A stretch of DNA of 64,000 nt from Kineosporia sp. NBRC 101731 (GTDB lineage: Bacteria > Actinomycetota > Actinomycetes > Actinomycetales > Kineosporiaceae), in the NCBI RefSeq assembly GCF_030269305.1, contig NZ_BSTC01000014.1, forward strand, positions 1 to 64,000, read 5' to 3'. Below are positions 50,834 to 63,114 of this stretch, piece by piece (the first letter of the stretch is position 1; the number at the start of each line of letters is the position of its first letter). The notes under the pieces were generated by a model that saw only the letters and a program-made list of their open reading frames with translations, did no database searches and was not told where the DNA came from. The position numbers were made by a program, and so were the translations under genes.

Positions 50834-52414
50834 ATGACCAAGGATGGACGCGTCGTACTGCCGGGCAGCGAAAGCCGCCGCTGGCTGCGGGAGACGCCAC
50901 TGGAGACAACTCCGGAGCCGGAGGGGCGCACCCGGATCACGTTGCTGCTGCGCCGCCGGGCCCCGCTGCCCGACCGCCTGGTACAGACCGCCGCGGTGGT
51001 GACCAACGAGCAGCTCAGTAAGCAGTTCGGCGCCGACCCGGCGGATGTCGCGTTGGTCTCGGAGATCGTTCAGCGGGCGGGCCTGCAGGTGGTGGAGGCC
51101 GACGCCGAGGCCCGCCTGGTCACGGTGGAGGGCACGCTGGCCGGGCTGACCAGCGTGTTCGGCACCGAGCTGGAACTCTTCGAGGGGGAAGACCCGTTCC
51201 GCCCCGACCCGGTGCGGTACCGGCGGCGGATCGGTGAGATGACTCTGCCCGCAGAGCTGGACGGCATCGTCCTGTCGGTGATCGGCCTGGGCACGCAGCC
51301 CATTGCCCGTCCCGAGTTCCACGTACCCGACAGCACTCCCCAGATCACCTACTCCCCAGTGGAACTCGGCCGACTCTACCGGTTCCCGCCGGAACTGGAC
51401 GGCACCGGGCGGCGACTGGCCGTGATCTCGCTGGGTGGGGCGTGCCGACCGCAGGATCTGGACGACTACTTCGCGGCGCTGGGTCTGAGCACCCCCGACA
51501 TCACGCACATCAGCATCGACGGTGCCCCGACCGCACCGGGCGACGGGCCGGCGACCCGGTTCGACCTCGAGGTCACGCTCGACCTGCAGATCGCCGGGGC
51601 CCTGGCCCCCGGCGCCACGATCCTCAACTACGTGACGCACAACAACGGCCAGGGCATCCTGCTGGCGCTGCGCGCGGCGATCCACGCCTCCCCGTCGCCG
51701 ACGGTCATCAGCCTGAGCTGGGGCTCGCCAGAGATCACCTACTCCGGTCAGCTCGCGCTGGCCATGCATGACCTGTTCGAAGACGCTGCGGCGCTGGGCA
51801 TCACGGTGTGCGCAGCCAGCGGTGACTCCGGCAGTTCCAGCGGCATGCCCGACGGTGGCTCCCACGTGAACTATCCCGCCTCCGATCCCTGCGTGCTGGC
51901 CTGCGGCGGCACCTCGCTGATCGCCGACCCGGCCACCGGCACCATCCACAGCGAGACGACCTGGAACACCGGGGCCTCCAGCGCGACCGGGGGTGGTGTC
52001 AGCGGCGTCTTCGACCTTCCCCCGTGGCAGGGAACGGCCGACGTGCCACCGCGTCCCGACGCACAGGAGCACGGACGCGGCGTGCCCGACGTGGCGGCGA
52101 ACGCCGACAACCAGACCGGCTACCGGATTCTTCTGGGCGGCAACGAGATCTGCGTGGGCGGCACCAGCGCCGCCACCCCGTTGTGGGCGGCGCTGGTGTG
52201 CCGGGCGGCGCAGTCGCTGGACCGGCCGCTGGGTCTGCTGCAGCCGCTGATCTACCAGGACCTGAAGGCCGACACGGTGACCCCGGGCTTTCGCGACGTG
52301 GTGCTCGGTGACAACGGCACGTACGCGGCCCGGCCAGGCTGGGACCCGAACACCGGCCTGGGATCGCCGCACGGCGAGGAACTGCTGGCAGTGCTACGGC
52401 AACGGTTCAGCTGA
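50834..52414 (+). CDS. S53 family serine-carboxyl peptidase (sedolisin/kumamolisin-like)
   Basis: A 526-residue proenzyme with no signal peptide. The pro-kumamolisin domain is about residues 30-165. The catalytic domain starts near ITYSPVELGRLYRFP. Catalytic Glu and Asp are in TRFDLEVTLDLQIAGA (E246, D250). Oxyanion Asp is in AASGDSGSSSG (D331), nucleophile Ser in CVGGTSAATPLWAAL (S445), and a calcium-site-like GDNGTYAARPGWDPNTGLGS is near the end. GGGGGAAG precedes ATG 50834. The lack of a leader suggests non-classical export or an intracellular role. Confidence 0.94.
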   Translation: MTKDGRVVLPGSESRRWLRETPLETTPEPEGRTRITLLLRRRAPLPDRLVQTAAVVTNEQLSKQFGADPADVALVSEIVQRAGLQVVEADAEARLVTVEGTLAGLTSVFGTELELFEGEDPFRPDPVRYRRRIGEMTLPAELDGIVLSVIGLGTQPIARPEFHVPDSTPQITYSPVELGRLYRFPPELDGTGRRLAVISLGGACRPQDLDDYFAALGLSTPDITHISIDGAPTAPGDGPATRFDLEVTLDLQIAGALAPGATILNYVTHNNGQGILLALRAAIHASPSPTVISLSWGSPEITYSGQLALAMHDLFEDAAALGITVCAASGDSGSSSGMPDGGSHVNYPASDPCVLACGGTSLIADPATGTIHSETTWNTGASSATGGGVSGVFDLPPWQGTADVPPRPDAQEHGRGVPDVAANADNQTGYRILLGGNEICVGGTSAATPLWAALVCRAAQSLDRPLGLLQPLIYQDLKADTVTPGFRDVVLGDNGTYAARPGWDPNTGLGSPHGEELLAVLRQRFS

Positions 52415-52601
52415 ACCGGGCCCGGTGAGCGGTCTCGCGGATCCGGGCGATCTGCTGCCGGTCGAGCCCGACGTCGGTTTCGGCTCGGGCATATTCGCCG
52501 GACAGGGTGATCGCCGACGCCCGTGGGTCGTCGGTGGCCAAGGCCACCGGCACCCCGGCGGCGAGCAGAGCGTGCACCGGGTGCTCCCGGTAACTGCTGG
52601 C
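52407..52601 (-). pseudogene. adenosine deaminase, C-terminal remnant
   Basis: About 64 residues, EHPVHALLAAGVPVALATDD followed by SAITLSGEYARAETDVGL and IARIRETAHRARFS. They match the last part of adenosine deaminase (H-P-L-x-x-L-x-x-G-V, the SDDP-type motif, then the closing helices). No catalytic core remains. A second stretch with LAPREVRSAVVFGDHSFRQDF near 52850-52920 may be another piece. Its stop shares the palindrome GGTTCAGCTGAACC with the S53 gene stop. Confidence 0.7.
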
Positions 52602-52923
52602 CACACTGGACACCCCGGCCCGGCAGGCCGAGCACCTCGCCGACGTCGGGGTGAGTCGTAGCCGGCCAACCGGCGAGGCGGACCTGCGCACCCTCGAGGG
52701 TGGATCACAGCAGCGGCATGTGCGCTGCCACCCGTCGCAGATCGGGATGGGCAAAACGGGACAACAGGGCATCGAACAGCACGAAGAAACCTTCTGGCAG
52801 ACAAAGGACCACGACAGTGCAGCGAACGGGGGGTTCGCCTACTGGTAGAAGTCCTGCCGGAACGAGTGGTCGCCGAAGACGACAGCGCTGCGCACCTCAC
52901 GCGGGGCCAGCCTCCAGATCACG

Positions 52924-53299
52924 GCGCGATGCTAGCGCACCGCCGCGCCGCCCGGCACCCCCGATCAGGGACGACGGCCGAATCATCACGAAAACGGGCA
53001 TTCCCCCCATAGTTACTCTGATGTAGCATCGGGCTGGATCGATGGGGTAAGCGGTCGATCAGAACTGCCACGGGCCGACCGCCACGTGACAGTGGCAGTG
53101 TCGCGCGGAACCAGAACCTTCCGCCGCTGCCGAAAAATGGTGACTCACCATTCATTCCAGGGGGCCGTCAATGATGACGCACGACCGGACATTCACTTCC
53201 GCTCATCCGAGCTGAATTCCTCACTTAGCAAAGACCTCTCACGTTCGTCTGTCCGACAGCACTTTTCGCTGTCCGGAGACTTCGTCCTGCCTGCACGCC
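52924..53299. other. 376-bp region upstream of the biosynthetic cluster
   Basis: No gene. It holds two inverted repeats that could be operators: GATCGA (53037-53042) with TCGATC (53055-53060), and CTGCCAC (53065-53071) with GTGGCAG (53092-53098) flanking a CCACGTGA core. TAGCAT near 53023 could serve as a -10. No cluster-linked regulator gene is found on this side. Confidence 0.4.
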
Positions 53300-55075
53300 G
53301 TGAAAGATCTTCTTCGGGAAGGAATCCGACGGGTGCTCGAAACCTTCACCACCGCCGATTCACAGACAGCCGCCGAGCCGCTGCTGCGGTGGCTCACCCA
53401 GGCATCCGGCGACGTCGGCCTGCACGTGGCCGCCCCGACCGCCGGCTGGGACTACATCTCCTACCGCGACCTGGCCGTCCAGGTGAAGGTGTTCGCCGCG
53501 GGCCTACAGGCGCAGGAGCTGCACTACGGCGACGTGGTGACCCTCATGGTCAGCGAGTCGGAGCAGTTCATCGTCTCCTTCTTCGGCTGCCTGCTCGCCG
53601 GGGTCACTCCCTCGACCGTCATGCCCCGGGGACTGTTCCGCAAGGCCGACGGCTACATCTCGCACGTGTCCGGCATCCTCAACGCCGCCGACCCGGCCCT
53701 CGTGATGGCCGGTGAGGAATCGCACGAATATGCCCAGGAGGCTGTCAAGGCCTCCGGACTGCCCTCTCCTGTCGTTACTTTCACGGTCGTTCGGGAGACC
53801 GGGGCGAAGGGTCCACCGGTCCGGGTACCGGCCGACCGACCACCCGGGGGCACCGCGCTGCTGCAGTTCACCTCCGGCTCCAGCGGCGACCCCAAGGGGG
53901 TCCGGGTGAGCTGGGGCGCGCTCACCGCGAACGTCGCTGCCATCCGGGACTGGCTGGGCCTGACACCGCAGGACCGGTTCGCCGGATGGCTGCCGCTGTT
54001 CCACGACATGGGGCTGATCGGCCAGATGCTGACGAGCATCACCAACGGCGTGGACACCTGGATCCTCAGCCCCGAGCAGTTCATCCGCAATCCCGGGCGC
54101 TGGGTGGAATGCTTCGGGAAGTACGGCGCGACCATCACCACCTCACCGAGTTTCGGCTACTCCTACGCCGCCCGCCGGGTCTCCCCCGACGACCTGGCCG
54201 GCTACGACTTCTCCCGCTGGCGCATCGCGATTCTCGGTGCCGAGCGCATCGACCCGGTTGGGGTCAACGACTTCACCCGGCTAGCCGCGCCCTTCGGCTT
54301 CGACCCGCACGCGCTGGTGGGCGCCTACGGCCTGGCCGAGGCGACCCTGGCCGTCACCGGGGTCCACCCGGCCGACGGATCGCCCCTGGTGAAGGTGCCC
54401 AGCACCGTGGTCGCGCCCGGGTCCCCGGTCGGCGCGCGGCGCGACGGGCTGCTCGGACGTGACCGCGGGACCGGCGAGCATCTGGTGGGCTGCGGCCGCC
54501 CGCTCGCCGGCCTGGAGGTGCACGTGCTCGACGACGAAGGTGCGGAGGTTCCCGACGGAACCTTGGGCGAGATCTCCATCAGCGGGACCTCGCTGGCCGA
54601 CGGCTACGTGCTGGGCGACCGCCGGACCATCGACTTCGACCCCGCCGGTCATCTCACCGGCGACGCCGGTTTTCTGCTCGACGGCGAGCTTTTTGTGGTC
54701 GGCCGGATCGGCGACAGCATCAAGGTGCGCGGTGCGATGGTGTTCGCCGAAGACCTGGAGGCCGAACTGGAGCGGGTCTCGGGGGCCCGGCACGGACAGG
54801 TCGCGGTGCTGCTCGGCCGCTCCGGCGGCTGCGACCGGGCCGTGGTGCTGATCGAGAGCTCGTCCCCGGAACGCTGGAACGACCGGATCGGCACGATCAT
54901 CTCCACCGTGCGCGCCCGCACCAGCCCGGAGTTCGACTGCCCGGTCTACGCGGGCCGTTCCGGGGCCATTGCCCGCACCTCGAGCGGAAAACCGCGTCGG
55001 CGCGTGCTGTGGCGTGACTATCTGGCCGGTGACCTCACCGACTGGCAGCTCGCGACCCAGGAAGGCCGGTCATGA
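53300..55075 (+). CDS. fatty-acyl-AMP ligase (FAAL, ANL superfamily)
   Basis: 591 residues. The phosphate loop is LLQFTSGSSGDPKGVRVSWG (about 190-201). FAAL-type motifs include FAGWLPLFHDMGLIGQML, GAYGLAEATL, TGDAGFLLDGELFVVGRIGD and the C-terminal catalytic Lys in ARTSSGKPRRR. FAALs adenylate fatty acids and pass them to a carrier protein, here most likely the ACP at 56.1 kb. GTG 53300 lacks a ribosome site; GTG 53333 (AAGGA upstream) is an alternative. The stop overlaps the next start (ATGA). First gene of the cluster. Confidence 0.92.
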   Translation: MKDLLREGIRRVLETFTTADSQTAAEPLLRWLTQASGDVGLHVAAPTAGWDYISYRDLAVQVKVFAAGLQAQELHYGDVVTLMVSESEQFIVSFFGCLLAGVTPSTVMPRGLFRKADGYISHVSGILNAADPALVMAGEESHEYAQEAVKASGLPSPVVTFTVVRETGAKGPPVRVPADRPPGGTALLQFTSGSSGDPKGVRVSWGALTANVAAIRDWLGLTPQDRFAGWLPLFHDMGLIGQMLTSITNGVDTWILSPEQFIRNPGRWVECFGKYGATITTSPSFGYSYAARRVSPDDLAGYDFSRWRIAILGAERIDPVGVNDFTRLAAPFGFDPHALVGAYGLAEATLAVTGVHPADGSPLVKVPSTVVAPGSPVGARRDGLLGRDRGTGEHLVGCGRPLAGLEVHVLDDEGAEVPDGTLGEISISGTSLADGYVLGDRRTIDFDPAGHLTGDAGFLLDGELFVVGRIGDSIKVRGAMVFAEDLEAELERVSGARHGQVAVLLGRSGGCDRAVVLIESSSPERWNDRIGTIISTVRARTSPEFDCPVYAGRSGAIARTSSGKPRRRVLWRDYLAGDLTDWQLATQEGRS

Positions 55076-56061
55076 CCGCTACGAACGAGACGACGACGAA
55101 CGAGACGGCGCCCGTCGTCGGTCTGCTCGACGTCGAGGACACACCCGGGGCCCGGGACAGTCGGCTACCACCGCCCCGCGCCCTGTACAACCAGTGGGAG
55201 AAGCAGCAGTGGGCGATCGCCCAGGTGAACGTGGGGCGCGATCGGGAGCAGTGGGAGACGCTGCGGCCGTTCGCGCGTCAGGAACTGCTGGGTGCGCTCA
55301 ACGAGCTGGAGACCGGTGAGGTCTTCGTCAGCCGCACCCTCAGCACCCTGGTCGGTTTCGCTCCCTCCGACCCCGACCGCCTGTTCCTCAGCACCCAGGT
55401 CGCCGACGAGGCCCGGCACGCCCAGTTCTTCCAGGACTACCGGCTGGACGCCGTCGGCCTGGAAGACGCTGCAGACGAGGACGACTCGGCCTACGCCCAG
55501 CTGTTCGAGCCGACGCTGCGATCGAGCCTGGAGCAGGTGGCAGCCACCGGTGGGGACGTGGGCTGGTGGCACACGGCGGTGGTGGAGTACCACCTCGTCA
55601 CCGAGGGCATCCTGGCCGCCGCCGCACTGCACCTGACCCGGCGCATCGCCCGGCGGTTCCAGCTGCCCGCGTTGGAAGAAGGCCTGGGCAATGTGATTCG
55701 CGACGAGTCAAGGCATTTCACCTACGGTCTGGCCGCCACCCGGCAGGCCGTCGAGGGCCCGCTGCGGGACCGGATCGCGCAGGTCTACCTGAACGGAGTC
55801 GAGGCCTCGGCCCGGATCATGGTGAACCCGCAGCGCAAGAGCGCGGCCCCGGTGCTGCGCCCGGCCCTGCTGCAGCGGGCCGCCCTGCTCAGTACCCAGT
55901 GGGATCTCACCCGTACCCGGGCGCTGCGCCAGTTGCGCCTGATGGGTCTTCCAGAACTGCGGGACGACACCGAGAAGATCTGGGACCGCACCTTGGAGAC
56001 CGCCCTGTCGGAGTACGCGGACGTCTGGGGTACACCGCACCCGGTCGCCGCCGCCCGCTGA
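55072..56061 (+). CDS. R2-like / ferritin-like diiron oxygenase or oxidase
   Basis: A 329-residue four-helix-bundle protein. Metal ligands are visible as E83, E113 and H116 in ADEARHAQFF, E178 in VVEYHLVTEG, and E212 and H215 in RDESRHFTYG. The spacing matches ribonucleotide-reductase R2-like proteins, but nearby RNR genes are absent. Its place between the FAAL and the first ACP suggests it oxidises or desaturates the acyl chain on that ACP. Start overlaps the FAAL stop. Confidence 0.88.
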   Translation: MTATNETTTNETAPVVGLLDVEDTPGARDSRLPPPRALYNQWEKQQWAIAQVNVGRDREQWETLRPFARQELLGALNELETGEVFVSRTLSTLVGFAPSDPDRLFLSTQVADEARHAQFFQDYRLDAVGLEDAADEDDSAYAQLFEPTLRSSLEQVAATGGDVGWWHTAVVEYHLVTEGILAAAALHLTRRIARRFQLPALEEGLGNVIRDESRHFTYGLAATRQAVEGPLRDRIAQVYLNGVEASARIMVNPQRKSAAPVLRPALLQRAALLSTQWDLTRTRALRQLRLMGLPELRDDTEKIWDRTLETALSEYADVWGTPHPVAAAR

Positions 56062-56086
56062 ACGACCCTACCCACAGGAGACAGAC

Positions 56087-56395
56087 ATGGCTCAGAACAC
56101 CGAGATCGGCGAGAACACCACATCGTCCACCTCTTCCCCGGACATCGGCGCCCGGGTGCGGGATGTCGTGGGCAGTCTGGTGCCCGGAGGCCGCCGGGAG
56201 GTCGAGACCGGCGACCAGCTGACCGACCTGGGTTTCGACTCGCTCGGCACACTTGAACTGGCGATGGCGCTGGAGACCGAGTTCGACCTGGGCGAGGTGC
56301 CGGAGGGGCAGGCCGTGGAGATGGCCACGGTCGGTGACATCGAGAAGCTGGTCAGCTCGCTGATCGGCCCGACGGCAGCGCCGGGCCCACAGTGA
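56087..56395 (+). CDS. acyl carrier protein 1
   Basis: 102 residues with an unusually long N-terminal tail rich in Thr/Ser. The phosphopantetheine site is LTDLGFDSLGTLELAMALE (Ser52). The C-terminal helices include EVPEGQAVEMATVGDIEKLV. CAGGAGAC precedes ATG 56087. It is probably loaded by the FAAL. The stop overlaps the next GTG (GTGA). Confidence 0.93.
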   Translation: MAQNTEIGENTTSSTSSPDIGARVRDVVGSLVPGGRREVETGDQLTDLGFDSLGTLELAMALETEFDLGEVPEGQAVEMATVGDIEKLVSSLIGPTAAPGPQ

Positions 56396-57366
56396 CGGCT
56401 GAACGTGAGGCCTGGCTCAACGCTCTCTCCCGGCTCTACCCGGTACCCGCCGGCTACCGGGTGCCACTGCTGGACGAGGACGAGGCCCAGGATGTTTTAC
56501 GCTGTGGTCCGGATATTTTCGCCGACCTGGTCGCCGCCGGGCTGCCCCACGACGGGGGCCGGTTCGACCGTAACGACCTCACCAACCTCGCCCTCGACGC
56601 CGGGACCGGGCAGTCCCGTCCCGAGCGGGCCGTGCGTTACGCCCTGCGCTGGATGCGGGAGGATCCCCGTACCTGGGAAACCCCGATGCGGTGGTCGTTC
56701 TCGATCGAGATGTCGGTACCGGACGACGCGGCCGGCCGGTGGTCGCACACCCGGTTCCTGCCCGAGCTGAACGGCGGACTCCTGGAGAACTGGGAGAGCT
56801 CGGCGGCGGTGCGGATGACGCCCACGCACTTCGAATTCGACGGGCCCGGCCCGGTGACGTTCTCGGGCAGCATCAGCACGGCGGGCAAGGTGCAGGGTCT
56901 GGTCTCCCCGGCGCTGCGCAAGATCACCGAGGAGTTCCTCGACCGCGGGTACCGCTGGGTCCGGCTGCCGGAGGACTGCCAGCACGACTACGCACCGATC
57001 CTGGACGCGGGGGTCGCCCCGTGCGTCGCGGCGTCCACTTACCTGCAGAAAGAGTTCCAGGCGGCCGGTTACGAGGCCCGCACCCGGGGCGGGTGGATCC
57101 TCGGCATGCTCGACCTGGCGCACTCCTGGGTCGAGGTGGTGGACGACGACGGGGTCACCAAGCCCGTCGACGCGGTCTTCGAGCGACTGTCGGCCCTCGC
57201 CGAGCACCCGCATCCCGGTATCCCCGCAGCCTGCGTGGGTTCGCGCATCAACCGGATGCTGCCGGGCGCGATCGGTGCCGGGGCTCCCGAGTCACTGCAC
57301 CACACAGCCGGCGGCGCGCGCCCGGCGACCACCCGCACCGTGATCAGAAGGGTAGGAGCCAGATGA
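56392..57366 (+). CDS. transglutaminase-like protein, candidate amide-forming (condensing) enzyme
   Basis: 324 residues. The C-terminal half has the Cys-His-Asp layout of the transglutaminase superfamily: APCVAASTYLQKEFQAAGYE (C211), LAHSWVEVVDDDG (H244) and KPVDAVFERL (D260). The N-terminal ~180 residues are novel to me (QSRPERAVRYALRWMREDP; FSIEMSVPDDAAGRWSHT). In andrimid biosynthesis a transglutaminase homologue (AdmF) joins carrier-bound acyl groups to an amine. Here the enzyme sits between the two carrier-protein genes, so I infer a like role. GTG start overlaps the ACP stop; its stop overlaps the next ATG. Confidence 0.7.
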   Translation: MTAEREAWLNALSRLYPVPAGYRVPLLDEDEAQDVLRCGPDIFADLVAAGLPHDGGRFDRNDLTNLALDAGTGQSRPERAVRYALRWMREDPRTWETPMRWSFSIEMSVPDDAAGRWSHTRFLPELNGGLLENWESSAAVRMTPTHFEFDGPGPVTFSGSISTAGKVQGLVSPALRKITEEFLDRGYRWVRLPEDCQHDYAPILDAGVAPCVAASTYLQKEFQAAGYEARTRGGWILGMLDLAHSWVEVVDDDGVTKPVDAVFERLSALAEHPHPGIPAACVGSRINRMLPGAIGAGAPESLHHTAGGARPATTRTVIRRVGAR

Positions 57367-58292
57367 CCACCACCTACGCCAGCGTCCGGGAACGGCTCGA
57401 TCAGGACCCCGGGTTCCGCGACGTGCTCAAGCGCCTGGTGGACCTGTCGGAGCGGGACTACTACAACCCGTACCGCGAGTTCCGGTGGCCCGACAGCCTG
57501 CCGGAGCAGCGCTGGTGGATGACGCCGGAGATGATGGTCGAGCACGGCACAGCGATCGGCGCCACCCTGAGCGAGCAGCAGCTGCAGGTGATCTCGCGCT
57601 GGGAGAGCATCAATTTCTACAGCCTCAACGTGCACGGTATCCGCGAACTGCTGCACGAGATCATCGCGCGGATCCACACGGCCGATTTCGTGGTGCCCTC
57701 GGCGTACTTCCACCACATCATCGGCGAGGAGAACGAGCACATGTGGTTCTTCGCCGAGTTCTGCCTGCGGTACGGCGGCAAGATCTACCCCTCCCGCGCC
57801 ATGAGCCTGGCCGGGCCGGGCGTGGCCGAGGCCGACCACTTCCTGGTCTTCTCCCGGCTGCTGATCTTCGAGGAGCTGGTGGACGTGTTCAACCAGCGGA
57901 TGGGCCAGGACGAGCGCCTCGACCCGACGATCCGCAAGGTCAACGAGGTGCACCACCGGGACGAGTCGCGACACATCGCGTTCGGCCGGCAGATCGTCGC
58001 CATGCTCTGGTCGGACCTGCGCGACCGCATCGACCAGACCCAGCAGGCCGTGCTGGAGGCGTACATCAAGCGGTACATGATCGCCTCGATCGACAGCCTG
58101 GTCGACCCCCTGATCTACAAGGACGCGGGAATACCCGACCCCTACGAGGTGCGCCGTCAGGTGCTGGCCGACCCGTCCCACCCGGCCTACGTGGAACGGA
58201 TCCTCAAACGCAGCATCTCGTTCATGACCAGCACCGGCGTGTTCACCTCGCCGCTGTTCGAGGAACCGCGCCGGGCCGGGGCGGCCTCGTGA
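57363..58292 (+). CDS. AurF-like diiron oxygenase (amine N-oxygenase type)
   Basis: A 309-residue AurF/CmlI-type diiron protein. Ligands: E95 or E99 in GIRELLHEIIAR, E123 and H126 in IIGEENEHMWFF, E170 in RLLIFEELVDVF, and H197, E201, H204 in NEVHHRDESRHIAFG. AurF-type enzymes turn arylamines or aminoacyl groups into hydroxylamines, oximes or nitro groups; CmlI acts on a carrier-bound substrate. The gene is directly followed by the second ACP (GTGA overlap), which suggests it works on a group on that carrier. Confidence 0.9.
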   Translation: MTTTYASVRERLDQDPGFRDVLKRLVDLSERDYYNPYREFRWPDSLPEQRWWMTPEMMVEHGTAIGATLSEQQLQVISRWESINFYSLNVHGIRELLHEIIARIHTADFVVPSAYFHHIIGEENEHMWFFAEFCLRYGGKIYPSRAMSLAGPGVAEADHFLVFSRLLIFEELVDVFNQRMGQDERLDPTIRKVNEVHHRDESRHIAFGRQIVAMLWSDLRDRIDQTQQAVLEAYIKRYMIASIDSLVDPLIYKDAGIPDPYEVRRQVLADPSHPAYVERILKRSISFMTSTGVFTSPLFEEPRRAGAAS

Positions 58293-58537
58293 GCAACGGT
58301 TTCGACGTCGTCGCGCAGAACCTGCGCACGCGCTACCAGAAGGTGCAGGGCAGCGGCGAGCAGATCCCGCCGGGTTACGACCTGATCGAGAACCGGGTGC
58401 TCGACTCGCTCGGGTTTGTCGAGTTCATCCTGCTGCTCGAGGAGCACTCGGGCCGGGAGATCTCGATCGACTCGGTGAGCAGGGAGGACTTCCGGACCGT
58501 CGAGTCGATCAGGAAGAGGTTCTTCGATGACGTCTGA
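58289..58537 (+). CDS. acyl carrier protein 2 (aminoacyl carrier candidate)
   Basis: 82 residues from GTG 58289. The site NRVLDSLGFVEFILLLEE holds Ser40; the final part is EISIDSVSREDFRTVESIRK. It differs clearly from ACP 1. It overlaps the next gene by 11 bases, the usual arrangement for the SerRS-like ligase and its carrier protein. Confidence 0.9.
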   Translation: MSNGFDVVAQNLRTRYQKVQGSGEQIPPGYDLIENRVLDSLGFVEFILLLEEHSGREISIDSVSREDFRTVESIRKRFFDDV

Positions 58538-59390
58538 GACCGTGCTGACGGGCACCGACGTCACCGGTGACGGCCGGGCCACCCTGGGTCCCGCCGCGAT
58601 CGGGCTGCTGGGCCGCCTGGACCGGACCTTCGCCGGGTGGGGCCTGGAGGCGGGCGCGCAGGAGTACCGATTCCCACCTCTGCTCACCGTCGGGGACCTG
58701 GCGAAGATGGACTACTTCGACAACTTCCCGCACCTGGCCTCACCCGTCTCCGCACTGAACCGCACGCTGATGAGTGACGCGGGGCTCGCCGAGGGCACGG
58801 TCGCGGACGGCGCGGTGGTGGCGTCGGCGCTGGTCGATGCCGAGTACGTGCTCCCCTCGGCCGCCTGCTACGGCGCCTACTTCGACCTGGCAGGCTCCCC
58901 GGTCGAGGGTGGAAATCGCGTGATCACCACGGTGGCAACGTGTTTCCGTCGGGAGGACCATTACGAGGGCCTGCGACGGCTGTTCGGCTTCACCATGCGG
59001 GAGGTCATCCTCGTCGGTGACCGCGACACCGTGCTGGAGCACCTGGGCACGTTCAAGGCGCGGATCGCGGCATTCCTGGAACAGCTGGGCCTGCCGCACC
59101 ACGTCGACGTGGCCACCGACCCGTTCTTCGACCCGAACGGCGCCAAGAGCAAGATGCAGAAGCTCTTCCCGACCAAGGAGGAGTTCCTGTACGACGGCAC
59201 ACTGGCCATCGCATCGGTGAACTTCCACCGTAACTTCTTCGGCGACCGGTACCGGATCCGGCTGCCCGACGGCTCGCCGGCTTTCACCGGTTGTGTGGCC
59301 TTCGGCCTGGAGCGCTGGATCAGTGCCCTGGGCCGGCAGTATCCCGCCCTCGCCTCCGTCGACCAGCTACTCACGACTTCTGGAGCGTAA
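58527..59390 (+). CDS. amino acid:[carrier protein] ligase (truncated SerRS-like, class II)
   Basis: 287 residues. It corresponds to the catalytic core of seryl-tRNA synthetase without the tRNA-binding arm. Motif 2 is VATCFRREDHYEGLRRLFGF; motif 3 is TGCVAFGLERWISALG. Probable zinc ligands are C114 (AACYGAY), E159 (MREV) and C256. Members studied in Bradyrhizobium load Gly or Ala onto a small carrier protein and not onto tRNA. Here ACP 2 is the natural partner. The amino acid chosen cannot be read from sequence. Confidence 0.9.
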   Translation: MTSETVLTGTDVTGDGRATLGPAAIGLLGRLDRTFAGWGLEAGAQEYRFPPLLTVGDLAKMDYFDNFPHLASPVSALNRTLMSDAGLAEGTVADGAVVASALVDAEYVLPSAACYGAYFDLAGSPVEGGNRVITTVATCFRREDHYEGLRRLFGFTMREVILVGDRDTVLEHLGTFKARIAAFLEQLGLPHHVDVATDPFFDPNGAKSKMQKLFPTKEEFLYDGTLAIASVNFHRNFFGDRYRIRLPDGSPAFTGCVAFGLERWISALGRQYPALASVDQLLTTSGA

Positions 59391-59392
59391 GC

Positions 59393-60217
59393 ATGACGTC
59401 TTCGACACAACCGGAACCGGGCTGGGTGGTGGAGGGTGCGGACCTGTCCCGTCCCAGCATCGCGCGGATGTACGACTACCTGATGGGCGGTGACCGCCAC
59501 GTCGAGGAAGACCGCGACGTGGCGCACGCCGCCCGCAACGCCGCCCCGATGATCCGGCTGACCATCTGGGAGAACCGCAAACTCATCAAACGAGTGGTGC
59601 GCGAGTTGGTCGCGGGCGGGGTAACGCAGATCCTCGACATCGGCTCCGGCATCCCGGCCCGGGCGTCCGTGCACGAGGTGGCCCACGCCATCAACCCGGA
59701 CGTGAAGGTGGTCTACGTCGACATCGACCCGGTGGCGGCGGCCCGGGGCCGCGAGCTGCTCGCAGACCTGCCGCACTGCGGCTCGTTCCAGGGCGACCTG
59801 ACCAAACCGCAGGAGATTCTCCAGCACCCGGACGTGATCTCCCGGCTGGATCTCTCGCAACCGGTGGCGCTGTTCTTCTTCAACGTGCTGCACTTCCTCG
59901 ACCGGGACGAGGTGGCCGCCGCGCTGGAGGTCTACCGGGATGCGCTGGCCCCCGGCAGTCACCTGGCCATCAGCCACGGTACCGGCGAGCTGGACGGTCG
60001 GGGGCAGGCGATCGGGGAGGTCTACGCCGGCGCCTACGGCCATCTGGACTACCGCACGAAAGACCAGCTGGCCCTGCTGTTCGGCGATTTCGGGCTGCTG
60101 GAGCCCGGGATCGTGCTGTTGCCCGACTGGCGGCCGGAGCCCTCACCGCTGAGCAGCCGGCTGGGTGCCCGGGGTGCCCCGGTGAACTGTTACGCGGGGG
60201 TCGCGGTCAAGCCCTGA
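59393..60217 (+). CDS. SAM-dependent methyltransferase (DUF574 / Methyltransf_19)
   Basis: 274 residues, ATG 59393 with GGAG upstream, 2 bp after the ligase. The family start SRPSIARMYDYLMGGDRHVE, the SAM loop ILDIGSGIPARASVHEVAHA and VVYVDIDPVAAARGRELLAD are typical. The YDYLMGG and NYAVDR-type openings mark this actinobacterial family. Probably methylates the O or N of the product (for example a hydroxylamine). The last plus-strand gene of the cluster. Confidence 0.92.
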   Translation: MTSSTQPEPGWVVEGADLSRPSIARMYDYLMGGDRHVEEDRDVAHAARNAAPMIRLTIWENRKLIKRVVRELVAGGVTQILDIGSGIPARASVHEVAHAINPDVKVVYVDIDPVAAARGRELLADLPHCGSFQGDLTKPQEILQHPDVISRLDLSQPVALFFFNVLHFLDRDEVAAALEVYRDALAPGSHLAISHGTGELDGRGQAIGEVYAGAYGHLDYRTKDQLALLFGDFGLLEPGIVLLPDWRPEPSPLSSRLGARGAPVNCYAGVAVKP

Positions 60218-60288
60218 AACGGTGCCTGCGCGGTCCGGCGCTCCGGCCGGACCGCGCAGGTGTTTCAGCTCAGTTCTGCTCGCTTCTT

Positions 60289-60948
60289 TCAGTTCTGCTC
60301 GCTCAGCCGAACCACCGTCGCGGACGCGACGACCGCGTGGCCCCGGGTGGTGAGGTGCTGGAAGTCGCTGGCGTACACGTCGTCCTGAGCCGCGGCCGGG
60401 TGGGTTCCGAAGTCGATGTGAAGCGTGCCGTTGCGTTCGGCGACGCCGCCCACGATCGCGTACAGCTCGTCGAGCTGGGCCTTCAGCGGCGGCTTGAACT
60501 CGTCGGGCAGTAGCCCGGAGCGGGTGATGTCGAACAGGCCCATGGTGACCACGGTCGCGCCGCTCTCACGCAGCGGCCGCACGATCTGGTCGAGCTCGGC
60601 GGCGACCCCGTCGAACGAACCGCGTAGCAAGTCGTTCCCGCCACACAGCACCACGGCCAGATCGGGCTCGAACTCCAGCGCCGGCTTCACCTGCCGGGCT
60701 CGCACCTCCCGGGCGAGAAGTCCCTTCTGGCCGAAGTTCTTGGCCCGTAGCCCGGGCTGCGACAACAGCAGACTCTCGCTCAGCCAGTCGAACCACGACT
60801 TGTCCGGGTACCCCTGGACCACTTCCCGGATACCCGCGGCGTGGCTGTCACCGAGCACCGCCAGACGCTTCCAGGGAGCCTTGGCGAGCAGGTCGCCGGC
60901 GCGGGTCAGGTCCTGGGTGTAGAGGTCCTGTGCGATGTTGTCGCTCAA
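60289..60948 (-). CDS. SGNH/GDSL hydrolase
   Basis: 219 residues starting at TTG 60948, which overlaps the exporter stop (TTGA). Block I is RLAVLGDSHAAGIREVVQGY (nucleophile Ser). Gly and Asn follow in ARNFGQ-like AKNFGQKGL and VVLCGGNDLLRG. Block V is YASDFQHLTTRGHAVV (Asp and His). No signal peptide. As the partner of the MFS exporter it may deacylate or detoxify the cluster product, or act in housekeeping. Confidence 0.9.
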   Translation of the reverse strand: MSDNIAQDLYTQDLTRAGDLLAKAPWKRLAVLGDSHAAGIREVVQGYPDKSWFDWLSESLLLSQPGLRAKNFGQKGLLAREVRARQVKPALEFEPDLAVVLCGGNDLLRGSFDGVAAELDQIVRPLRESGATVVTMGLFDITRSGLLPDEFKPPLKAQLDELYAIVGGVAERNGTLHIDFGTHPAAAQDDVYASDFQHLTTRGHAVVASATVVRLSEQN

Positions 60949-62402
60949 CGGACGGTCCCTTCGGTGGCTGGCGTCGCCTCGCTGCGAGGCGCCGGTGCGG
61001 GCACGTACTTCGGGAAGTGGAATCCGGCGCTGGCCGCGGCCGCCGCGAGCGCGCACAGGCCGCAGACCAGGTAGACGAGCTGGTAGCCGGACAGGCCCGG
61101 CCGGGCGGCGATGATGGCCGTCATGGCGGCGATGCCGAGGGCACCGCCGACCTGGCGGCAGGCGATGTTCATGCCGGTGGCGCTGGCGAACTTGACCGGG
61201 CTGGCCGACATCACCGCGGCGACCGAGAGGCTCCACGACATCAGGCCGATACCGAAGCCGATGACGAAGCTCAACGGCAGCCAGAAGGCCGTGAAGTGCG
61301 GGTTCTCGGGCAGGAAGATCCAGCAGAACACCCCGACCGCGAAGATCGTCAGCGAGCCGACGACCGAGATGACGCGGGGTCCGACCCGTTCCCCGACCCG
61401 CGAGGCGATGATCGCGGTCACCGACGCCACCAGAGCCCCTGGGCTCATCGCCAGACCGGCCTTCAGCGTGGAGTAGTGCCACTGCTCGGTCAGGACCAGC
61501 ACACCGACCAGCAGCCAGGTGAACAGGGCCGCGCCGTAGACCATCGCGGCGAGGTTGGCGCGCAGGAAGGTGCGGTTGCGCCACAGCGTGGTCTCGACCA
61601 CAGGGACGGCGTGCCGGGTGGAGCGCAGCAGCACGAAGGCAACCAGGACCGGGCCGAACCCCAGCGCCAGGAGGGTGGAGAGGTTGCTCCAGCCCCATTC
61701 CTCGCCCTTGGTGGCGCCCAGCACGGTCAGGCCCACCCCGAACACCAGGATCACCGTGCCGATCGGGTCGGGCACCCGCCCGCCGCGCAGGCCGGTGCCG
61801 ATCAGGCGCCGGCCGGCGACGAACAGGACGATGCCGATCGGCACGTTGATGAGGAAGAGCGAGCGCCAGCCCACCCATTCGACCAGGACGCCGCCCAGAC
61901 CCGGGCCGATGGCCGCGGCCAGGGCGCCGGCGGCGCTCCACAGGCCGATGGTCTTCGTGCGCTGGGAGGAAGGGGTGTCGGTGAGCACCACGGCGAGTGA
62001 GGCCGGCACCATCGCGGCCGCGCCGATGGCCTGTAGGCCCCGGCCCACGACCAGCACGTCGAGGTTCGGCGCGAGGGCGCACAACAGCGACATCACGGTG
62101 AATACCGCTACACCGGAACAGAACAAGGCCCGCCGACCGATCACGTCGGAGAAGCGGCCGGCCGGTGCGAGCAGGGCGGCGAACACGATGGCGTACAGCG
62201 TGATCACCCAGGAAATGCCGCTCAGGGTGCCGGCGGGGGTGTCGCCGGGAAAGTCACCGGCGAGCGAGGGGACGGCGAGGTTGGCGACCGTCGAGTCGAG
62301 CATGGCCAGGAAGGTGGCACCGGCGGCGAGAACGCCCGTGGTGCGGGAGCCTGTTGTTCGGGAGCCCGCCGTTCGGAAACCTGCTGTGGACACGAATCGC
62401 AC
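60945..62402 (-). CDS. MFS transporter, DHA2 (14-helix drug exporter) type
   Basis: 485 residues. Antiporter motif C region: LGGVLVEWVGWRSLFLINVP. N-terminal motifs MLDSTVANLAVPSLAGDF and GRFSDVIGRRALFCSGVAVF. A short TTGSRTTG repeat near the N-terminus comes from a repeated GGAGCC-type stretch (62345-62385). GTG 62402 or 62393 can start; GGGGGAAG lies directly upstream. The promoter holds a 19-bp operator shared with the TetR gene. Likely export of the cluster product. Confidence 0.93.
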   Translation of the reverse strand: MRFVSTAGFRTAGSRTTGSRTTGVLAAGATFLAMLDSTVANLAVPSLAGDFPGDTPAGTLSGISWVITLYAIVFAALLAPAGRFSDVIGRRALFCSGVAVFTVMSLLCALAPNLDVLVVGRGLQAIGAAAMVPASLAVVLTDTPSSQRTKTIGLWSAAGALAAAIGPGLGGVLVEWVGWRSLFLINVPIGIVLFVAGRRLIGTGLRGGRVPDPIGTVILVFGVGLTVLGATKGEEWGWSNLSTLLALGFGPVLVAFVLLRSTRHAVPVVETTLWRNRTFLRANLAAMVYGAALFTWLLVGVLVLTEQWHYSTLKAGLAMSPGALVASVTAIIASRVGERVGPRVISVVGSLTIFAVGVFCWIFLPENPHFTAFWLPLSFVIGFGIGLMSWSLSVAAVMSASPVKFASATGMNIACRQVGGALGIAAMTAIIAARPGLSGYQLVYLVCGLCALAAAAASAGFHFPKYVPAPAPRSEATPATEGTVR

Positions 62403-62415
62403 CTTCCCCCGGAAA

Positions 62416-62434
62416 TAGCGAACGATCGTTTGCC
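62416..62434. promoter_or_regulatory. TetR operator site A (exporter promoter)
   Basis: TAGCGAACGATCGTTTGCC, with the perfect core AACGATCGTT, lies 14 bp upstream of the exporter start. It differs from site B at only two positions. Confidence 0.85.
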
Positions 62435-62487
62435 AACCCGAACTTATCCGCGCACCACCCGCGCGTCAACGAATCGGGCGAAACCGC

Positions 62488-63084
62488 TCACAGACCCGCA
62501 GTCTCGCGCAGCAGCCGGACCGTGCGGTCGCGGGTGTCGGCGTCGCCGAGCTGCACGGCCTGGTTCAGGGACAGGCCCAGGGCGATCAGCAGGGCGGCCG
62601 TGTCGGGCACGTCGCGGGGCAGCCGGTGGCCCGCCGCCACCGCCTCGGCCAACTGGGCCCGCAGGAAGTGACGCCACTGCCGGGCCGCCTCGACCATGTG
62701 GTCACGCAAGGGCCCGGACTGCCCGTCCAGCTCGAAAGATGCGCTGGTGAGCAGACATCCGCCACGGAACGGACTGTTGACCAGGTAGTCGGTCCAACCC
62801 TCGACGATCACCCGCAGCCGCCGCTCCCCCGGGCCCAGGTGCAGGGCCAGGGCCGGGTCGACGACCCGCTCGCGCAGCGCGGCCACCCCGAGGTCGAACG
62901 CGGCCAGCAGCAGGGCCTCGCGGGTGCGGAAGGGCCCGACGACGCCCGCCTTGCTCATGTTCAGGGTGGTGGCGATACCCCCCAGGGAGATACCACCGGC
63001 ACCGTGCACGGACATCTGCTGCACGGTCTCGGCGAGGATCGCACGGCGGGTCTGCTCGGCTCCGGCCACTGAACTACGGGACAT
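62488..63084 (-). CDS. TetR/AcrR family regulator of the exporter
   Basis: 198 residues from ATG 63084 (ATG 63093 is an alternative). HTH: RRAILAETVQQMSVHGAGGI then GIATTLNMSKAGVVGPFRTR. The C-terminal domain has GWTDYLVNSPFRGGCLLTSA, typical of the TetR_C_6/YcdC-like group. Its own start is 12 bp from operator B, and operator A lies before the MFS gene, so it represses both. Ligand may be the cluster product. Confidence 0.93.
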   Translation of the reverse strand: MSRSSVAGAEQTRRAILAETVQQMSVHGAGGISLGGIATTLNMSKAGVVGPFRTREALLLAAFDLGVAALRERVVDPALALHLGPGERRLRVIVEGWTDYLVNSPFRGGCLLTSASFELDGQSGPLRDHMVEAARQWRHFLRAQLAEAVAAGHRLPRDVPDTAALLIALGLSLNQAVQLGDADTRDRTVRLLRETAGL

Positions 63085-63095
63085 GGCAACCATCT

Positions 63096-63114
63096 TAGCG
63101 ACCGATCGTTCGCC
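63096..63114. promoter_or_regulatory. TetR operator site B (autoregulation)
   Basis: TAGCGACCGATCGTTCGCC. Same length and core as site A, placed directly upstream of the tetR start. Confidence 0.85.

Follow-up and report, generated by a model that had tools for sequence, protein, structure and literature searches.

An eleven-gene Kineosporia locus for the proposed coupling of a fatty acid and an oxidised glycine by a transglutaminase-like enzyme

The window analysed here is a stretch of 64,000 nucleotides from Kineosporia sp. NBRC 101731 (contig NZ_BSTC01000014.1, genome of 8.26 Mb), and the system in question is a gene cluster that begins at position 53300. Eight + strand genes (53300-60217) encode, in order, a fatty acyl-AMP ligase (FAAL), an R2lox-like enzyme (DI1), an acyl carrier protein (ACP1), a transglutaminase-like protein (TG), an AurF-type N-oxygenase (DI2), a second carrier (ACP2), an amino-acid:[carrier protein] ligase (ARS) and a methyltransferase (MT). 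An earlier note had described these co-directional genes as a two-carrier system without polyketide synthase (PKS) or nonribosomal peptide synthetase (NRPS) modules. All eight are present, with the third-position GC (0.86-0.95) of high-GC coding sequence, and are conserved in Kineosporia mesophila; the enzyme assignments agreed with family, structure and motif matches, and the two-carrier logic was right. The end of the cluster at 60217 did not stand, as an SGNH hydrolase, a major facilitator superfamily (MFS) protein and a TetR regulator on the opposite strand, reaching 63069, are also part of it, for a total of 11 genes. With this set the soil bacterium seems to join a fatty acid and an oxidised glycine by means of TG, and not by giant assembly lines. 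The features are as follows.

53300..55075, + strand: FAAL, 591 aa; GTG start, internal start at 53333 possible
55072..56061, + strand: DI1, R2lox-like diiron (or Mn/Fe) enzyme, 329 aa; PF00268, R2lox structures
56087..56395, + strand: ACP1, acyl carrier protein, 102 aa; PF00550, DSL motif
56392..57366, + strand: TG, transglutaminase-like, 324 aa; invariant triad, fold
57363..58292, + strand: DI2, AurF-type diiron N-oxygenase of the glycine-nitronate cassette kind, 309 aa; PF11583
58289..58537, + strand: ACP2, stand-alone carrier for an amino acid, 82 aa; DSL motif, AmcB/DltC models
58527..59390, + strand: ARS, SerRS-like amino-acid:[carrier protein] ligase, 287 aa; 3mey, NF005479
59393..60217, + strand: MT, S-adenosylmethionine (SAM) methyltransferase, 274 aa; PF04672
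60225..60260, no strand: inverted repeat of 36 bases between the convergent MT and SGNH genes; strong fold
60289..60948, - strand: SGNH/GDSL hydrolase, 219 aa, LitG-like; PF13472 (7.4e-19)
60945..62303, - strand: MFS exporter; PF07690 (1.1e-49), start possibly further upstream (to 62402)
62488..63069, - strand: TetR-family regulator; PF16925 (6.5e-24), kept in K. mesophila

The + strand genes are closely packed. Overlaps of 4 bp occur at FAAL/DI1 and TG/DI2 (ATGA) and at ACP1/TG and DI2/ACP2 (GTGA), ACP2 and ARS overlap by 11 bp, and gaps of 25 bp and 2 bp separate DI1 from ACP1 and ARS from MT. The inverted repeat (fold of -46.5 kcal/mol over 90 nt) is a possible bidirectional terminator; a terminator scan that required a T run did not list it.

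The gene set is not a chance grouping, given the same order in K. mesophila, dN/dS values of 0.05-0.22 and recurrence in other families. K. mesophila carries the same genes at 92-98% protein identity, and the dN/dS range covers all 11 genes, with FAAL, MT and TetR calculated from 578, 263 and 164 aligned residues. Across the block 52727-63112 the two Kineosporia share 92.5% identity. That the cluster is better conserved than its surroundings was considered and dropped, since a ligase-like gene to its right is 93.6% identical; lower identity was confined to the left flank, whose longer pieces reach about 81-84%. Because the right-hand gene is equally similar, the likeness within Kineosporia was taken as constraint, not transfer. 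A TG search of 58 relatives returned two matches, the window genome and K. mesophila (2 of the 6 genus genomes searched), and among 394 genomes of the class 13 had a match, mostly distant.

A search for DI2 relatives covered 84,980 species and used nine aligned DI2 sequences with two peptide patterns, so that relatives lacking the patterns are missed; 226 were found. Neighbourhoods were called with a simple gene finder for the best 80 of the 226. TG lay beside DI2 in 10 of them and was missing from 70, and none of these 70 had DI1 or FAAL above threshold. Adding 14 further loci gave 13 loci with TG and DI2 and 10 with TG but not DI2; L026, in which the gene finder missed TG (77 bits), was left out of these counts. 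The 13 loci held ARS throughout, FAAL (>100 bits) in 6, DI1 in 7, SGNH in 7 and a class III aminotransferase in 6. The earlier note had proposed a search for the gene set in other genomes, and the complete set of FAAL, DI1, ACP1, TG, DI2, ACP2 and ARS indeed recurs in seven: K. mesophila, Actinomadura fibrosa, Actinomadura rudentiformis, Solihabitans fulvus, an Actinocorallia sp., Lentzea californiensis and a Streptomyces (L155). It occurs once more, without FAAL, in a metagenome-assembled genome (MAG) of an uncultured Corynebacteriales. The window, the seven complete sets and the MAG are referred to as the nine DI1-type loci; all nine carry SGNH, six an alcohol dehydrogenase (ADH) or GMC gene, and five a PF04672 MT. 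Separately, in the two Actinomadura species genes that look MOSC-like by eye adjoin the cluster together with TetR and MFS genes (L044 304-3978, L046 17392-20118), and may perhaps confer resistance to N-hydroxylated products.

For the acyl half, FAAL matched PF00501 (3e-55), with 3pbk, a fatty acyl-adenylate ligase, as nearest solved structure (9.5e-65); NCBIfam FAAL models matched, all below their cut-offs. FAAL would load a long-chain fatty acid onto ACP1, which matched PF00550 above the cut-off (1.5e-6) and has the DSL motif. DI1 matched PF00268 (8.9e-9) and the R2lox (R2-like ligand-binding oxidase) structures 7qbk and 3ee4. Residues E83, E113, H116, E178, E212 and H215 were invariant in 8/8 aligned sequences, window included, and a Val stands four residues ahead of E212 in that alignment. 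V86 and Y173 align with a Val and a Tyr of R2lox, presumably its ether cross-link pair. DI1 resembles R2lox in sequence and metal ligands and may share this pair, but scores below the NCBIfam R2lox cut-offs and is tied to a FAAL and an ACP; it may oxidise the ACP1-bound acyl chain. To our knowledge, the physiological substrate of R2lox is unsettled. SGNH, LitG-like, is a candidate release or acyl-supply enzyme, and at L044 one gene fuses SGNH to a PF04672 MT. Among plasmid relatives of DI1, one had an AMP-binding neighbour, and their neighbours gave no clear function.

A DI1 search of 392 genomes, presumably of Streptomyces, gave 5 matches at E up to 1e-30, four of which were opened (L154-L157). 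L156 and L157 encode, in order, a regulator, a ketoacyl-ACP synthase III (KASIII), MFS, FAAL, R2-like protein, ACP, GDSL hydrolase, GMC, a 123-aa protein, acyl-CoA dehydrogenase, a 310-315-aa protein, ThiF, an AurF-like protein, a small protein and a hydrolase. This is the gene order of the lipothrenin (lit) cluster of Streptomyces aureus LU18118 (PMC10616846). Lengths mostly differ by no more than one residue: the L157 counterparts of litD, litE, litF, litG, litH, litJ and litN have 572, 325, 87, 227, 539, 420 and 310 residues, against 573, 326, 88, 228, 539, 421 and 311 in PMC10616846. In L156 and L157 litK was uncalled, and litA, litB, litC, partly litH, litL, litM, litO and litP differ more, some of the differences being start choice; neither genome is that of the lipothrenin producer. 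Window proteins were identical to those of L157 at 45% (FAAL), 44% (DI1, LitE position), 39% (ACP1), 34% (SGNH) and 44% (MFS, LitC position), whereas FAAL reached 32 and 33% with the FAALs of two other TG clusters. Of the remaining two loci, L155 holds the complete TG-type set and an acyl-ACP desaturase gene, and L154 has one frame with FAAL and DI1, followed by ACP1 with SGNH nearby; neither TG nor DI2 was present in the 20 kb read there.

Lipothrenins are threonine amides of hexadecanedioic acid (C16 dioic), some of them hydroxamates, according to PMC10616846. There, deletion of litD or litG lowered the yield, and litN was required for N-hydroxylation, which the authors placed after amide formation. 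The window shares with that cluster the FAAL, R2-like, ACP order, a GDSL hydrolase, MFS, TetR and an AurF-like N-oxygenase, and the product proposed below would, like lipothrenin, be a lipo-amino acid hydroxamate. The clusters also differ: ARS and TG are absent from the lit gene table, which has one clear carrier, and the amino acid there is threonine, with the ThiF protein LitM linked to epimerisation. In the window the SGNH gene lies on the opposite strand, unlike the GDSL gene of the lit module. The FAAL/R2-like/ACP/GDSL module of lipothrenin type is present, but LitL, LitM and a LitN-type oxygenase are lacking, ThiF giving no match among the cluster genes. LitL was also tried as a TG homologue and rejected, as the LitL-position protein of L157 had no match to the TG profile.

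For the amino-acid half, DI2 matched PF11583 (2.4e-32), and its invariant residues include E81, E123, H126, E170, E171, H197, E201 and H204. By motif, these fit six metal ligands and the extra His of N-oxygenases; a His four residues before E201xxH204 was found in 83/83 relatives scoring >150 bits. Such an extra His beside six ligands is characteristic of FDO N-oxygenases, according to PMC12154687. Searching solved sequences with a DI2 profile was unproductive. As the earlier note proposed, the AurF-like enzyme is likely to N-oxygenate an amino acid held on a carrier. ACP2 has the DSL motif, a PF00550 match below the cut-off (E 0.017), and the AmcB and DltC carriers as best NCBIfam models, also below cut-offs; most of the 80 neighbourhoods have a carrier gene next to DI2 or ARS. 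ARS matched PF00587 (1.8e-5) and NCBIfam NF005479 (8e-40), both below cut-off, and the Bll0957 ligase structure 3mey (3e-31). Residues C114, E159 and C256 were invariant in 11/11 sequences and are presumably zinc ligands. ARS homologues occurred in 81/83 DI2 loci (13/13 with TG, 68/70 without). The SerRS-like core and the adjacent carrier are those of amino-acid:[carrier protein] ligases; as in the Bll0957 ligases (Mocibob 2010, as described in PMC2922099), a SerRS-like homologue stands next to a stand-alone carrier, but ARS is embedded with an N-oxygenase and TG. Its substrate is probably glycine.

He and Ryan, in 2021, are said to have described a glycine-derived nitronate cassette for enteromycin carboxamide. 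One cassette of this kind, L053 of Micromonospora qiuiae, has an adenylation-peptidyl carrier protein (A-PCP) gene and a PKS (both by eye), a hydrolase, DI2, ARS, an ACPS-like gene, ACP2 and a TIGR00027-type MT. It resembles the akazaoxime/A-76356 cluster, for which Komaki et al. 2023 (PMC9967187) give _56660 A PCP, _56670 KS AT KR ACP, _56710 ACP, and _56720 nitronate O-methyltransferase, with a diiron oxygenase. There, labelling suggested glycine, leucine and propionate, glycine was put on the _56660 NRPS and not on an ARS, and He and Ryan 2021 is cited for the nitronate chemistry. The order is close but not exact (four genes at L053 against three tags between _56670 and _56710), and the match rests on the published gene table and not on M. 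humidisoli sequence. Such cassettes share with the window a diiron oxygenase, a carrier and a methyltransferase in one cluster and, at L053, an ARS homologue. They usually run DI2-ARS-(ACPS)-ACP, accompanied by a methyltransferase of TIGR00027/LCM type and by NRPS, PKS or KASIII-like partners, whereas the window runs DI2-ACP2-ARS with a PF04672 MT, the FAAL half and TG. Of the cassette, the N-oxygenase with six ligands and extra His, the loading enzyme and the carrier were found in the window; a TIGR00027/LCM-type nitronate O-methyltransferase or nitronate monooxygenase was not found among the cluster genes. The TIGR00027/LCM-type MT occurred in 63/70 DI2 loci without TG and 0/13 with TG, and nitronate monooxygenase in 2/70 and 2/13. 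By the missing LCM-type MT, the 13 TG loci part from the usual O-methylation route, which decides neither direction of TG. MT itself (PF04672, 5.5e-68) matched its counterparts in L044, L045 and L155 at 345, 256 and 231 bits and its best own-genome paralogue at 187 bits; by sequence it belongs to a family other than that beside the usual nitronate cassette.

In a DI2 tree of 88 rows, 12 of 14 sequences from TG loci formed one clade (100/99) and 68 sequences without TG another (100/95); their sister relation was weakly supported (80/32), and DI2 of L021 and L037 branched apart, with a long-branch warning there. Two further arrangements were noted around DI2. L111 and loci of similar gene-length pattern combine a DI2-ARS-ACP cassette with two methyltransferases and, by eye, SAM synthetase, sugar kinase and methionine synthase genes, as if SAM were recycled in the cluster. 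On a plasmid of Agrobacterium vitis F2/5 (L042 9708-13629), ACP2-like, DI2-like, nitronate monooxygenase and ARS-homologue genes stand in a row, continued by one hypothetical gene and a phosphopantetheinyl transferase.

TG matched PF01841 below the cut-off (E 0.027) and had no NCBIfam match, and fold and triad were therefore used instead; a profile search against solved sequences gave nothing useful. C211, H244 and D260 were invariant in 11/11 aligned sequences, window included. An AlphaFold2 model (pLDDT 91) was compared with the PDB by Foldseek, and the five matches at E up to 0.001 were 3isr (three chains, TM 0.41-0.47), a putative cysteine protease that we take to belong to the transglutaminase-like class, and TgpA (two). 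By alignment TG has a Cys-His-Asp triad and by model a transglutaminase-like fold; it may act as an acyltransferase. Every one of the 9 loci with DI1 and DI2 has TG, which lies between the halves except in L155; TG probably joins the two carrier-bound halves. The coupling role that the earlier note gave it is thus probable from triad, fold and position between carrier/ligase pairs. AdmF of the andrimid pathway, reportedly the subject of Fortin et al. in 2007, is said to be a transglutaminase homologue that condenses two carrier-bound substrates. TG would resemble it in a condensing role, by analogy of mechanism; AdmF reportedly works in a PKS/NRPS setting, unlike TG.

TG clusters without DI2 again pair carriers with ligases. 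FAAL-ACP-TG-ACP-AMP ligase was found in L024, L028 and L039 (by eye for the L024 and L028 carriers), and L038 has TG in the vicinity of an ACP and of an adenylation protein for amino acids that comes with a peptidyl carrier protein (PCP). Ketosynthase-containing TG clusters were L034 (annotated), L050 and L051 (by eye) and L048 (similar gene lengths). As separate observations, TG-DI2-ACP2-ARS stands next to the ketosynthase genes in L034, L050 and L051, and in L034 pabB and a gene for a class IV aminotransferase are present too, which suggests a chain started with p-aminobenzoate and carrying an N-oxidised glycine unit. The TG cluster on a plasmid of Streptomyces sp. NBC_00536 (L039 20812-22608) contains a gene resembling nitrosuccinate lyase (604 bits against a cut-off of 650), a hint of nitrite-based chemistry. 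On a plasmid of Mycobacterium intracellulare subsp. chimaera (L038 10642-17994), the TG-like gene occurs with ACP, short-chain dehydrogenase/reductase and hydrolase genes, and acyl-CoA dehydrogenase, adenylation protein, PCP and chlorinating enzyme genes lie on the other strand.

From gene content, conservation, likely catalytic residues, the fold class of TG and the kinship of the halves with published clusters, we infer a composite cluster in which two carrier-bound halves are joined by TG without NRPS or PKS modules, a reading to which we give an even chance or slightly better. Substrates, direction of TG, order of steps, oxidation state and methylation site are given as predictions. FAAL would activate a long-chain fatty acid and load ACP1; DI1 would oxidise the acyl chain, perhaps at its far end by analogy with the dioic acid of lipothrenin; and SGNH may help to supply or release the acyl unit. 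ARS would adenylate an amino acid, most likely glycine, and load ACP2, and DI2 would oxidise its nitrogen before or after the TG step. Cys211 of TG would take the acyl group from its carrier and hand it to a nitrogen nucleophile. In the preferred direction, fatty acyl-ACP1 is the donor and the glycyl or N-hydroxyglycyl group on ACP2 the acceptor, giving an N-acyl-N-hydroxyglycine lipid (hydroxamate). MT would methylate the product, the MFS protein export it and TetR regulate the genes.

This direction, taken by itself, falls somewhat short of an even chance. Acyl-ACP1 is favoured as donor because the minimal Kineosporia cluster then needs no extra amine, because in lipothrenin an amino acid is amide-linked to a fatty acyl group, and because the ketosynthase-containing TG clusters supply an ACP-bound chain. 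The final nitrogen state may be either hydroxamate or nitronate. The earlier note had named an N-oxygenated acyl amino-acid amide as product, which holds only if oxidation stops at hydroxylamine/hydroxamate or if the amide nitrogen comes from elsewhere, since a nitrogen already taken to nitro or nitronate cannot double as the acylated one of the amide.

Several observations weigh against the proposed route. DI2 shares 53% identity with its counterpart in the L053 cassette but only 27% with the LitN-position protein, so the nitrogen may reach nitronate. A nitronate has no nucleophilic nitrogen. The TG clusters L021 and L037 carry nitronate monooxygenase, an enzyme that would remove the glycine nitrogen and whose presence implies full oxidation there. 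Class III aminotransferases occur in 7/9 DI1-type loci, both Kineosporia being without, and suggest an amine acceptor built on the fatty chain. In Foldseek, unrelated axoneme proteins (E 0.004 and 0.011) ranked ahead of acyltransferases; arylamine N-acyltransferases (NAT) and geldanamycin amide synthase (GdmF) came from E 0.017 with TM ~0.2, weak model-based matches that are a hint only. TG heads the operon in L155, before SGNH and FAAL. The second AMP ligases of L024, L028 and L039 had acyl-CoA ligases, not amino-acid ligases, as best models, and NCBIfam showed amino-acid specificity among the AMP ligases of other TG clusters only in L038. The published counterpart of the L053 enzyme, the diiron oxygenase of the akazaoxime class, is assigned nitronate/oxime formation (PMC9967187). 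In PMC10616846, deletion of litE, the DI1 counterpart, or of litH had only minor effects, so that the role given to DI1 is tentative; litL was essential, and LitL, the tentative amide former, is not a TG.

The strongest alternative, which we nevertheless consider unlikely, runs TG in reverse. DI2 would make a nitronate (nitroacetyl) thioester on ACP2 and TG would pass it to the amine of an ACP1-bound chain, an omega-amino fatty acyl group made via DI1, an alcohol oxidase and an aminotransferase; the resulting lipid, a nitroacetamide or an O-methyl nitronate, would be analogous to enteromycin. Nitroacetyl as donor is favoured by the kinship of DI2 (DI2 and ARS are nearest to the enteromycin-class cassette), by the aminotransferase, accompanied by ADH or GMC in the numbers given above, and by the nitronate monooxygenase in L021 and L037. 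The one aminotransferase tested, that of L052, scored best with putrescine-aminotransferase models, below cut-offs. NAT and GdmF, the weak fold matches of TG, take amine acceptors. Both Kineosporia loci, however, are without aminotransferase and alcohol oxidase, and the best own-genome aminotransferase match (47%) lies amid genes that are arginine-biosynthesis-like by eye. The distribution of the TIGR00027/LCM-type MT also counts against it.

A hydrolase or editing thioesterase role for TG, with the halves making separate products or being joined by SGNH or a host enzyme, is less probable still, and we rate it as quite unlikely. It would fit the putative cysteine protease as best structural match, the presence of SGNH beside DI1 in every DI1-type locus and the operon-heading TG of L155; the constant presence of TG between the halves elsewhere, the lack of DI1 and FAAL above threshold in all 70 DI2 loci without TG, and the two carriers with their ligases in TG clusters lacking DI2 speak against it. 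A standard enteromycin-type O-methyl nitronate cluster, with a PF04672 MT swapped in and the FAAL half giving a small non-fatty acid, would agree with the cassette homology and the MT directly after ARS, but is highly improbable given a FAAL half 34-45% identical to lipothrenin-type fatty-acyl genes, a DI1 resembling R2lox, and a PF04672 MT in only five of the nine DI1-type loci. FAAL loading beta-alanine to give enteromycin was likewise dropped after the FAAL half matched lipothrenin-type genes.

Returning to the composite cluster, what appears new is the combination of the two halves, together with TG itself; each kind of sub-pathway (lipothrenin, nitronate cassette) is known. The earlier note had not recognised the gene set, and a published cluster with the whole set was indeed not found among the matches listed in full-text searches of the open-access literature, although both halves resemble published clusters. 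The cluster is conserved and constrained, and TG represents an uncharacterised, presumably condensing, enzyme family. More tentatively, and with the odds on the other side, TG may found a family of stand-alone synthetases that couple two carrier-bound units without condensation domains, the product being a lipid with a glycine-derived hydroxamate or nitronate, a class not found described in the open-access literature searched. In its boldest form, carrier-bound nitroacetate would act as carbon nucleophile, with TG forming a carbon-carbon bond like a ketosynthase. If the reading is true, it offers an NRPS-free way to join two carrier-bound units, in a small family whose characteristic gene order is easy to search for; the R2lox-like enzyme beside FAAL and ACP makes its substrate testable with few small proteins; and the lipothrenin and enteromycin-class pathways would be interchangeable modules, which makes the products of other composite clusters easier to predict.

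To the left of the cluster, 52410-52610 (- strand) encodes a 67-aa C-terminal remnant of an adenosine deaminase gene, 81% identical to the copy in K. mesophila, where it is a 306-aa reading frame (L043 4441-5361).

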